Positions 41,782 through 47,031 of a stretch of DNA of 64,000 bases are shown here, one piece after another (position 1 is the first letter of the stretch; every line of letters starts with the position of its first letter). Source of the stretch: Mycobacterium colombiense (GTDB lineage: Bacteria; Actinomycetota; Actinomycetes; Mycobacteriales; Mycobacteriaceae); the NCBI RefSeq assembly GCF_001672755.1, contig NZ_LZKI01000074.1, positions 1-64,000 of the forward strand. Direction: 5' to 3'. The notes beneath the pieces are model-generated. The model ran no database searches and was not told where the DNA came from. It saw nothing but the letters and a program-made list of their open reading frames with translations. The translations under genes and the position numbers were made by a program.

Positions 41782-42849
41782 ATGCGGATCATCGACGCCG
41801 ACGGGCATGTGGCCGAGAATTCTTCGCTGGCAATCGAAGCGATCAAACGCTGGCCGCAACACGTCAAGTTCAGCACGGACGGGCGGCCCGGGCTGACGCT
41901 CGAAGGCCGCAATTACCCGGAGGACACGGGCCCGGGCGCGGGTTGCCCACCCGAGCATGGGATCAGCAAGGCTCCCGACATCAATTGCCGCTCACCCGAG
42001 GGCGTGCTGGGCGACGCGGACCTCGATCACATCGACACGATGGTGCTGTATCCGAGCATGGGGCTGTGCGCGCCCAGTCTCGAGGATCCGGAATTCGCCG
42101 CCGGCTTCTCCCGCCTGTACAACCAGTGGATCGCGGACTACTGCGCCTCGTCGGGCGGGCGGTTGCGCGGCGTCGCCGTGACACCGATCGAGCACGGCCG
42201 GGCGGCCATCGACGTCATGACGGAGGCCAAAGAGCTTGGGCTGATTGCGACTTTGGTGCCGCCGGCACTCAAGAACCGCAACCTCGACCATCCCGACCTC
42301 GACCCGTTCTACGCCGCCGCCGTCGAACTCGGCATGCCGCTGGGCGTGCACGGCGCCCCGGGAATCCATCTGCCCAAGATCGGCGTCGACCGCTTCACGA
42401 ACTACATCCAGGTGCACTGCATCAGTTTTCCGTTCGACCAGATGACGGCGATGACCGCGATGGTCTCCGGCGGCGTCTTCGAGCGCCACCCGCAGTTGCG
42501 GGTCGCCTTCCTGGAGGCGGGCGCGGGGTGGGTGCCCTTCTTCATGGATCGGCTGCACGAGCACTACGAGAAGCGCGGCGACTGGGTGGAGCGCGGCTGG
42601 CGTCGCGACCCGCACGACTATCTGGCCGCGGGCAATATCTGGGTGACGTGCGAGCCGGAGGAACCGATCCTGCCCGGCGTGATCGATCTGCTGGGCGACG
42701 ATTTCATCATGTTCGCCAGCGACTACCCGCACTGGGACGGCGAGTGGCCGGAGAGCACCAAGCACCTGCGCACGCGAGGCGACATCAGCGAGGGCTCCCG
42801 GGAAAAGATCGGTGGCTTGAACGCGCAGCGCTTCTACAACCTGAACTGA
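41782..42849 (+). CDS. Amidohydrolase family 2 (decarboxylase-like) metalloprotein
   Basis: 355 residues. [15 protein letters not shown] (DxH), [35 protein letters not shown], and [16 protein letters not shown] (catalytic Asp) are the signature of the aminocarboxymuconate/o-pyrocatechuate decarboxylase group. Substrate unidentified. It ends about 140 bases before a cobalamin riboswitch, which reads away from it. Confidence 0.88.
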
Positions 42850-42987
42850 GCGGCGATCCTCAGGGGCGCCTCCGGATCAACTTTGATTCAGCGGATTCTC
42901 AGGCTCGGCCGTCGTTGAGGTAATGTCCTCCGCGCAGCTGGTTTGCCCGGGGGCCCTTGTGTGTCCCTGGCATCGAGTGGGGGGCGC

Positions 42988-43160
42988 TGGTACGGGTCCG
43001 CCGTGAGAGGGAACCCGGTGTGAATCCGGGACTGTCCCGCAGCGGTATGCAGGAACGACCGCCGTCATCGGCACTGGTCCAAGGACTGGGAAGCGACGGC
43101 CATTAGGGGCACCGGTTTCGGTGCGTGCCTGCGAGTCCGAAGACCTGCCAGTTGTGCCGG
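42988..43160 (+). ncRNA. Cobalamin (B12) riboswitch
   Basis: The core gggaacccggtg-tgaatccggg-actgtcccgcagcggtat (43009-43048) matches the Rfam cobalamin element, including the GGGAA, GGTG..AATCC and GTCCCGC blocks. The closing gagtccgaagacctgcca (43133-43150) is its 3' conserved end. It is on the plus strand, upstream of a 30-codon ORF and a PPE gene. Boundaries are estimated from conserved blocks. Confidence 0.93.
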
Positions 43161-43311
43161 GCGCGCCGCGTCCGGCGTGCGCGTCGCCTCGTGGATTGGG
43201 CAGATGGCCGTTGGCAAGACAGCTGTGATGCCGATCTATCGGCGCGCTGATCGCGTCTGCGGCTGAACGTCTTTGGAGCGACGAGCATCCCGTCGCATCC
43301 AAGGACGATTG

Positions 43312-43404
43312 ATGACACCGCAACCCTTCAGAACGACCATGCTTGCCGCGCCCGGCTTTACCGCCCTCCGCGTCGGGACTCACCGAGCGAGCCGTCAGTC
43401 ATGA
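43312..43404 (+). CDS. Short upstream ORF coupled to the PPE gene
   Basis: 30 codons: [20 protein letters not shown] then [10 protein letters not shown]. An AAGGA sits six bases before its ATG, a much better ribosome site than anything in front of the PPE start. Its TGA (43402-43404) overlaps the PPE ATG (43401-43403) as ATGA. Likely a translated leader that lets the riboswitch control PPE translation. The peptide itself has no recognisable function. Confidence 0.6.
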
Positions 43405-44717
43405 CCGCGCTGGTGGATTTTGCCCTGCTGCCGCCCGAAATCAACTCTGGGCGTATGTATTCCGGGGCGGGTTCGGCCCCGCTGCTGGCCGCCGCGGCGG
43501 CCTGGAAAGGGATTGCCGCGGAGCTGCGGTCGATGGCACTGTCGCAGGGCTCGGTGATCGCGGGACTCATTGATCAATGGCACGGTTCCGCGTCGGCGTC
43601 GATGGCCGCCGCATCGGCACCGTATGCGGCGTGGATGAGCGCCACCGCAGCACAGGCCGAGCAGACCGCCGCGCAGGCCACGGCAGCGGCGGCGGCATAT
43701 GAGGCGGCATTCGCGGCGACGGTGCCTCCGCCGGTGATCGCGGCGAACCGCACCCTGTTGTCATCGCTGGTCGCGACCAACTTCTTGGGCCAGAACACCG
43801 CCGCCATCGCGGCCACGGAGGCCCACTACGGCGAAATGTGGGCCCAGGACGCTGCCGCCATGTACGGCTACGCCGGCGATTCGGCGGTCGCCTCGACGAT
43901 GACTCCGTTCATGCCGCCACCGGAGACCACCGACCCAGCCGGACAGGCCACGCAGGCCGGTGCGGTCACTCAGGCCACCGCCAGCTCAACCGTGGCGAAC
44001 ACGCAGACGGCGCTGTCGCAATTGCAGTCCGCGGTGCCGACCGCGCTGCAGAGCCTTGCGACGCCCTCCTCGTCGACGTCGTCGCCCGTGTCGGGATTGA
44101 TCGATTGGTTGGGATTCAGCGGAGCAGATTTCTCCAGCCCGAAGGGAATCCTGAATTTCCTGGCCGGAACGGATGGCTCCCCGATGGGAGCGTTTCTGAA
44201 CAACAACCTGTTGAACACCATATTTTCGTCCGGGTTCTACATGCCGGGTAACTACCTGGGCACCATGACCGACTTCGCCGGTATGGCGAGCTCCGGGGCG
44301 GCCGCGGGCGCCGGTGGGGCCGCGGCCGAAGGTGCGGCCGCAGGAGCGGGGTCGCTCGAAGCGGGGCTCGCGAACGCGGTGGGCCCGCTGGGATCAACGA
44401 GTCTGGGTGGTGCCGTGTCGGCGGGTCTGAACCAGGCCTCCTCGGTCGGGGCCCTCTCCGTTCCGTACGGGTGGACCACCGCCGCTCCGGAGATCACGCT
44501 GGCCGCCCAGGCCTTGCCGAGTGGCGGGCTCAGCGCCGCACCCGCCGTCGCGGCGGGAGCCGAGGGAAGTCTGCTCAACGAATTGGCCCTGGCGGGCTTG
44601 GCGGGACGCGGAGTGAGCGGCATGAGTACGGGTGGACGCTCCATGGGCGTCACCACTCCCCAGAACCGGCCGCTGCCCATCGTGATCGTGAAACCGCCGC
44701 CGTCCGCCACAGAGTGA
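43401..44717 (+). CDS. PPE family protein, SVP subgroup
   Basis: 438 residues. [18 protein letters not shown] is the PPE N-terminus, [19 protein letters not shown] the WxG region, and [15 protein letters not shown] the GxxSVPxxW motif near residue 350. Proteins of this type are exported by type VII secretion, normally as dimers with a PE partner; no PE gene is present upstream here. Expression is predicted to fall when cobalamin is plentiful, as a B12 riboswitch precedes it. M. tuberculosis PPE2 also has a B12 riboswitch but is longer and sits with cob genes. Confidence 0.95.
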
Positions 44718-44933
44718 CTGGACTGGTGACGGCCTGGCCTTCCGGGGCGGTGTCGTGCTTCTCAAGCATGTTGCCCGGCAGAGTTATCCGTGTTGCCGAG
44801 GGGAAGCCGCCGGATTGGGCGCGAGCCGGGTCGGGCCGCGCCGCTCGCCAGTACGGTTCCTCCGACGCCGGTGAACATCGCGCGCGGCTTGACGGCTTAC
44901 TTCACGGCCGGGCGGATGGCAGGATTTCGGGGC

Positions 44934-45329
44934 ATGGGCCCTTTTCTGTTGCGCGCCGCATTGACCGGATTGGCGTTGTGGATCGTCACCCTCTTCGTGC
45001 ACGGCCTGAGCTTCGTGGGTGGCGACACGAAGCTGGAGCGGGTCGGCATCATCTTCGTCGTCGCCGTGATTTTCGGTCTGGTCAACGCCTTCATCAAGCC
45101 GATCGTCCAGATCTTGTCGATACCGCTGTACATCCTGACGCTCGGCCTGTTCCATGTCGTCGTCAATGCGCTGATGCTCTGGATCACAGCGCGGATCACC
45201 GAGCACACCACGCATTGGGGACTGCAGATCGATCACTTCTGGTGGACCGCGATCTGGGCCGCGATCGTGCTCTCGATCGTTAGTTGGTTGCTGTCCTTGG
45301 TGATTCGGCGCACCGGCGCCGGACGCTAG
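44934..45329 (+). CDS. Holin-4-like membrane protein
   Basis: 131 residues, four TM helices (LRAALTGLALWIVTLFVHGL, GIIFVVAVIFGLVNAFIKPI, YILTLGLFHVVVNALMLWIT, AIWAAIVLSIVSWLLSLVIR). Family phage_holin_4_2/YvlD-like, common in non-phage bacterial genomes and probably involved in envelope stress. An in-frame ATG earlier (44790) would add an unconvincing polar stretch. Convergent overlap of four bases with aao. Confidence 0.8.
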   Translation: MGPFLLRAALTGLALWIVTLFVHGLSFVGGDTKLERVGIIFVVAVIFGLVNAFIKPIVQILSIPLYILTLGLFHVVVNALMLWITARITEHTTHWGLQIDHFWWTAIWAAIVLSIVSWLLSLVIRRTGAGR

Positions 45330-46362: not shown

Positions 46363-47031
46363 TCAGGAATGCGCGGCCTGCGGGGCCGCCGGGGTCGCCG
46401 GGGTCGCCGGCGCGGCGGGTGCCTGCGGGGCCGGGGAGGCCGCCGGAGCCTGGGGAGCCGGGGAGGCGGCCGGCGCCTGCGGGGCCGGCGAGGCCGGCCG
46501 CGCCTGCTGCTGACCGCCCAGCAGGCTGTTGAGGATGCCGAGCGTGCCCTGCACACCCGCGGGCGGCGCGGTAGGCGGCGGAACGGCGCCCGGCGTCAGC
46601 TGCCACGGCTGGCAGCCCGAGGTCTTGAACGCCTTGTCGCCCGGATCGATCTGCACTACCTGCGGCTTCTTCGACATCGCGTTGTCAATCAGGGCGCCGT
46701 CCGGGTTGCCGGTTCGCTTCCAGTAGCAGGTGCCGTTGTCGACGGGCCCCCCGGAGCTGTAGATGCCCGGCGCGATGTCCGTTCCCACCGCGTAGATGCC
46801 GTCCTTGTCGATGGACGTCTTCGGCCCGGCTGGTTCCGGCGGGGCGCCCGGCGACGGCGCCGCTGACGGTTCTGGTGACGCGGCCGGTGCAGGTGACGCC
46901 GACGGCCCCGGCGTCGGCCCCTGTGTCTCTTCCGGATCGGCGCCGGCGACCACGGTGGACGCCGCCCAGCTTGCGACCATCAGGCTCGCAGCAACCAACC
47001 TTGCCGCAGTAGGTACTCCACCCATAGACAT
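46363..47031 (-). CDS. Secreted Pro/Ala-rich protein (Rv1906c-like)
   Basis: 222 residues. Signal peptide (MSMGGVPTAARLVAASLMVA to VVAGA), a Pro/Ala/Ser linker, then a small folded core GIYAVGTDIAPGIYSSGGPV with CYWKRTG and CQPW giving a disulfide. The tail has imperfect repeats of SPAPQAPAA. The core looks like the secreted DUF found in Rv1906c. Function unknown. Confidence 0.85.
   Translation of the reverse strand: MSMGGVPTAARLVAASLMVASWAASTVVAGADPEETQGPTPGPSASPAPAASPEPSAAPSPGAPPEPAGPKTSIDKDGIYAVGTDIAPGIYSSGGPVDNGTCYWKRTGNPDGALIDNAMSKKPQVVQIDPGDKAFKTSGCQPWQLTPGAVPPPTAPPAGVQGTLGILNSLLGGQQQARPASPAPQAPAASPAPQAPAASPAPQAPAAPATPATPAAPQAAHS

Follow-up and report, generated by a model that had tools for sequence, protein, structure and literature searches.

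A metE-type cobalamin riboswitch and a short uORF precede a PPE-SVP gene in Mycobacterium colombiense

In the 64,000-nucleotide stretch of Mycobacterium colombiense DNA analyzed here (the window), a PPE gene of the SVP type lies behind a leader that matches metE in its promoter, its class I-type cobalamin riboswitch, its ribosome site and about its first 15 codons. We propose that this leader places the PPE gene under B12 repression with a short upstream open reading frame (uORF) acting as relay, a reading to which we assign a probability of roughly 0.75. At low B12 (probably adenosylcobalamin) the ribosome site of the uORF would be open and the uORF translated, and ribosomes finishing the uORF would reinitiate at the AUG that overlaps its stop, producing the PPE protein. 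With ample B12 the uORF ribosome site would be masked by an anti-Shine-Dalgarno strand, and both uORF and PPE would be off. The ligand, the OFF direction and the termination-reinitiation step are those expected at this locus by analogy with homologs. In M. tuberculosis both the metE and the ppe2 riboswitch act as OFF switches at the level of translation; for class I (metE-type) riboswitches AdoCbl selectivity together with translational OFF control has been published for M. tuberculosis metE only (PMC11260477). The features discussed below are as follows.

41782-42849, + strand: amidohydrolase, left flank of the insertion (Pfam; empty sites in relatives)
42853-44893, no strand assigned, boundaries approximate: inserted unit of promoter, riboswitch, uORF and PPE (flanking genes 5-50 bp apart in relatives)
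42921-42926, + strand: probable -10 box, TAATGT
42934-42946, + strand: GCAGCTGGTTTGC motif near the transcript 5' end (leader comparison)
42971-43166, + strand: cobalamin riboswitch aptamer, metE type (RF00174; aptamer tree)
43131-43149, + strand: B12 box, GCGAGTCCGAAGACCTGCC (cmscan alignment)
43268-43277, + strand: predicted anti-Shine-Dalgarno strand, CGTCTTTGGA
43298-43307, + strand: TCCAAGGACG, containing the uORF Shine-Dalgarno sequence
43312-43404, + strand: uORF of 30 codons, a truncated metE start (codon identity with metE in register; peptide score)
43401-43404, + strand: ATGA overlap of PPE start and uORF stop (sequence; conservation)
43401-44717, + strand: PPE-SVP gene, 438 aa (Pfam; dN/dS)
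44934-45329, + strand: 4-TMS holin-family protein, right flank of the insertion (Pfam; empty sites in relatives)

The riboswitch, the PPE-SVP gene and its possible role

The original prediction of a B12 riboswitch ahead of a PPE gene was borne out by Rfam cmscan, which gave a full-length RF00174 match (model positions 1-189) with the B12 box and complete core at 83.4 bits (E 4.6e-19), the gathering score being 31.5 bits. The covariance-model scan proposed for finding the exact boundaries confirmed the element at 42971-43166, so that the start first given, 42988, lies 17 nt inside the aptamer. This is the sole cobalamin riboswitch in the window, and 234 nt separate the aptamer from the PPE start. 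The window genome (5.5 Mb), labeled G000 and set alongside Mycobacterium relatives, has two cobalamin riboswitches over the cut-off, this one and one before metE. Aptamers were called by Rfam, as a simple sequence pattern misses the ppe2-type switches. The -10 box occupies the metE -10 position in an alignment with the genome's own metE (TAAACT there), and TANNNT was found at the same place in the other leaders compared. Motifs like GCAGCTGGTTTGC 5' of the aptamer are also common to metE leaders.

Two other Rfam observations were made. A match to the npcTB_6715 'sRNA' (46501-46694, - strand) falls within a gene (46363-47031, - strand) that probably encodes a secreted protein, and thus may reflect coding sequence in the window genome. 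In several relatives, short cobalamin riboswitches (about 130-145 nt) precede a protein that starts MDISAELAEIASY and has a weak FhuF_C match at loci L268 (357-1577), L259, L267, L269 and L272, that of L272 scoring below the cut-off.

The open reading frame at 43401-44717 matches PF00823 (PPE; E 2e-64, 216.9 bits) and PF12484 (PPE-SVP; 44.4 bits) and thus has the PPE domain and SVP C-terminal region of that subfamily. The SVP region stands in place of the PPW region that marks PPE2 orthologs; the PPE2-type proteins checked were all PPE-PPW. The SVP assignment made earlier therefore holds, as do the reported lack of an adjoining cob gene or PE partner (none was found by Pfam analysis of the neighboring open reading frames) and the presence of unrelated genes downstream, which encode the holin-family protein and an FAD oxidoreductase; the amidohydrolase gene lies upstream. 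The cobQ gene, which has no riboswitch, and cobN are located elsewhere in the genome. The contrast drawn with the PPE2-cob arrangement of M. tuberculosis was correct in that cob genes are missing here, but the switch is by its sequence a copy of that of metE rather than one of ppe2 type. Nor is a riboswitch-PPE locus without cob genes unusual: most of the PPE2-type loci examined lack them, and a 2015 review notes variation in whether Rv0256c shares an operon with cob genes (PMC4428469). The dN/dS values of the PPE (0.15-0.36) argue for a working product. An AlphaFold structure model (pLDDT 39) was too poor to use.

The SVP proteins under this switch cluster together (SH-aLRT 92), and sister to them is the PPE of a PE-PPE pair that directly follows iron-uptake genes of EfeUOB type (FTR1, imelysin and Dyp peroxidase; L034, 1177-6317). 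Another near relative of the window PPE belongs to a PE-PPE pair directly downstream of a NicO nickel transporter gene (L054, 3142-6143). Further near relatives are situated near M-boxes. For magnesium, calcium, heme and sugars, PE/PPE proteins are reported to serve as channels in the outer membrane or as uptake factors. Given these neighbors and these reported roles, uptake of B12, corrinoid or cobalt by the PPE protein, as first suggested, is plausible by analogy; that it forms an outer-membrane channel for these compounds is conjecture. We consider it rather doubtful that the protein provides the missing way across the mycomembrane for B12, corrinoids or cobalt and is made at B12 shortage under a metE-kind switch. 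A specific outer-membrane B12 transporter has been sought in M. marinum and not found (PMC11237697), and a search for a FecCD (BtuC-type) permease in the window genome found none. The chances are nearly even that control is as proposed and the protein has another role, either B12-sparing or methionine-related, or in surface or host contact. A copied leader implies co-regulation with metE, and the reported functions of PPE proteins are diverse, but the nearest PPE relatives lie beside transport genes or switches for iron, nickel and magnesium.

Weak cobalamin matches were also seen before cobalt transporter genes. The cbtB-cbtA genes (L159, about 2392-2447; G000:C54:8391-8446) have a sub-threshold match of 25.3 bits and 56 nt at their start, and such matches recur in relatives and may represent a shortened B12 element.

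The uORF and the proposed control

The uORF and its overlap with the PPE gene were overlooked in the original prediction. Translation would begin at the ATG at 43312, which follows the Shine-Dalgarno sequence AAGGA (43301-43305), and end at TGA 43402-43404, and the PPE start codon (ATG 43401-43403) overlaps that stop to give ATGA. Inspection of the sequence before the PPE start revealed no Shine-Dalgarno sequence. The claim that a surface protein is itself the regulated product is incomplete: the immediate target would be the uORF to which the PPE gene is coupled. In M. tuberculosis the same AUGA overlap joins uPPE2 to PPE2, and uPPE2 translation is essential for PPE2 synthesis, which proceeds mainly by termination-reinitiation (PMC11260477). 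The window locus has the stop-start overlap of such a relay.

The overlap (as ATGA or TGATG) was present at 25 of 31 riboswitch-PPE loci versus 11 of 112 PPE genes lacking a switch (Fisher p 5e-14, a value that overstates independence because the loci are related). Across these 25 loci uORF lengths range from 8 to 58 codons, and the phase between uORF and PPE has been retained despite many length changes. Among the six loci without the overlap, four have a PPE frame that extends upstream, uninterrupted, as far as a further start codon. At L149 a uORF start of metE origin continues in frame into the PPE gene, and at L155 the PPE frame is open upstream into the uORF region; neither has a stop-start overlap. 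G045 and G200 have neither the overlap nor an upstream-open PPE frame.

The strand CGTCTTTGGA (43268-43277) can pair with TCCAAGGACG (43298-43307), a segment conserved in metE-type and PPE leaders, and does so in the minimum-energy fold, where it covers the uORF ribosome site. The duplex was calculated at -21.3 kcal/mol versus -6.1 for shuffled sequences. Pairing of this kind is common among leaders of metE type, with a mean of -11.7 versus -6.6 kcal/mol. In the published metE model, binding of AdoB12 leaves the start region hidden by an alpha-TIR strand (PMC11260477). Several observations count against our explanation: the pairing is weak in some PPW leaders, covariation in the Shine-Dalgarno hairpin was not above that of shuffles, and the folding energy of the whole leader is not unusual (z -0.58). 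A loop beside the uORF ribosome site was considered as kissing-loop partner and dropped, the published L13 partner being in a separate upstream hairpin (PMC11260477).

The riboswitch might instead act directly on the PPE gene, or through Rho-dependent termination, with the uORF being incidental. Premature, probably Rho-dependent, termination does accompany the metE and ppe2 switches of M. tuberculosis (PMC11260477), but the missing Shine-Dalgarno sequence at the PPE start and the uORF/PPE phase kept through so many changes in length make this improbable. Termination may nonetheless add to translational control at the PPE leader.

Descent of the leader from metE and insertion of the unit

An alignment of 436 nt, from the -10 box to codon 16, gives 71.6% identity between the window module and the genome's own metE. 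In it the start codons of uORF and metE coincide, with 391 nt from -10 box to start here and 389 nt in metE. When the window leader was used as a DNA query against 396 genomes, the best matches were a few PPE loci followed mostly by metE leaders, the latter with up to 91% identity over about 200 nt. In a tree of 57 aptamers all six SVP switches, together with six PPW switches, fell among the metE switches, and the ppe2-type (class IIb variant) switches formed a separate branch with support of 100/100. Aptamer tree and own-metE alignment thus point to common ancestry with the metE switches, and the tree gives no such ancestry with those of ppe2.

The likeness extends into the coding sequence. 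Over the first 15 uORF codons, a mean of 24.0 of 45 bases agreed in register with metE codons (28 metE rows), compared with 13.2 +/- 2.15 upon shuffling, and none of 20000 shuffles scored as high; no other register came close. The uORF peptide resembles the N-terminus of the genome's own MetE, MTPQAFTATVVGSPRI (peptide score p 2.5e-4), and MetE likeness is also found in the uORF frames of G383, G010 and G271. Counting against our explanation, the PPW uORFs of G104 and G026, which have the same leader type, gave no MetE resemblance. The SVP carriers retain metE with its own switch, and hence the leader arose here by duplication and not by displacement. Judged from its sequence, the window leader is a copy of the metE leader and the uORF a truncated metE start.

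A cobalamin riboswitch core was also seen at L163 (2204-3362), where about 270 nt on there is a gene, VPLNTIALELVPPN..., that by eye is methylenetetrahydrofolate reductase-like. A switch-bearing metE copy is found in that genome as well.

In G102, G232, G128, G117 and others the amidohydrolase stop codon lies 5-50 bp from the holin start codon. In G000, G246 and G154 riboswitch and PPE lie between these two genes, and G383 has the same order. As the flanking genes are adjacent in close relatives, the riboswitch-uORF-PPE unit (~2 kb in the window) is, on this comparison, an insertion. G010 and G271 carry SVP units of the same kind at different loci, and this leader type also precedes PPE genes in PPW-type units of G104, G026, G160, G015 and G236. 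The PPW proteins having metE-type leaders are interleaved among those of ppe2 type, which indicates that the metE-type leader was joined to two PPE subfamilies. As to whether leader and PPE were joined once or more often, the AU test gave p 0.24 for one clade.

The unit is patchy across the genus and missing from close relatives, as might be expected if the leader were a decaying, functionless duplicate of metE control. This we regard as very unlikely given that the aptamers of the six SVP carriers score 79-88 bits, and given the dN/dS values of the PPE and the retention of both overlap and anti-Shine-Dalgarno strand. Also very unlikely is an M. tuberculosis-kind PPE2-cobQU locus that lost its cob genes while its PPE diverged, which would share the riboswitch-uORF-ATGA-PPE order but is disfavored by an aptamer that groups with metE and not ppe2, by a PPE of SVP and not PPW type and by the presence in G010 of both a metE-type SVP unit and a ppe2-type locus, and is further opposed by insertion of the unit between two unrelated genes.

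Relation to known systems

The metE and ppe2 switches, the uPPE2 relay and the variable cob linkage of ppe2 were already known. No report of a metE-type switch before a PPE gene, of a uORF derived from a metE start or of a B12-controlled SVP PPE was found in the literature searched, which was mostly open-access, and earlier notice is possible. It has been speculated, in the papers on ppe2 and on the M-box locus, that riboswitch operons were invaded by PE/PPE elements (PMC11260477, PMC12810186). The present locus offers a concrete case of PPE genes coming under nutrient riboswitches: here, judging by sequence, the riboswitch leader itself was copied to a PPE gene and metE retained its switch, and what was left of the metE start would have become the coupling uORF. 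The finding of the same riboswitch-uORF-AUGA-PPE design with two riboswitch branches and two PPE subfamilies suggests that the relay has been selected. The locus also provides a specific candidate, a PPE protein putatively controlled by B12, for a B12 route across the mycobacterial outer membrane.

Three systems invite comparison. The class I switch of the metE (Rv1133c) leader is alike in aptamer type, promoter motif, anti-Shine-Dalgarno/Shine-Dalgarno arrangement and start-codon position; the difference is that a PPE gene lies downstream here, with metE cut to a uORF of ~30 codons that overlaps the PPE start. The ppe2 (Rv0256c) relay likewise has a B12 riboswitch, a uORF with an AUGA overlap and a PPE product, but its switch is of the compact class IIb-variant type and belongs to the other branch, PPE2-type proteins are PPW and in M. 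tuberculosis cobQ-cobU follow. In the M-box-uORF-PE20-PPE31-MgtC system a nutrient riboswitch again controls a uORF before PE/PPE genes (PMC12810186), and the near relatives of the window PPE include PPE genes linked to M-boxes. That system differs in its magnesium ligand, its PE partner, the presence of mgtC in the operon and its conserved uORF peptide.
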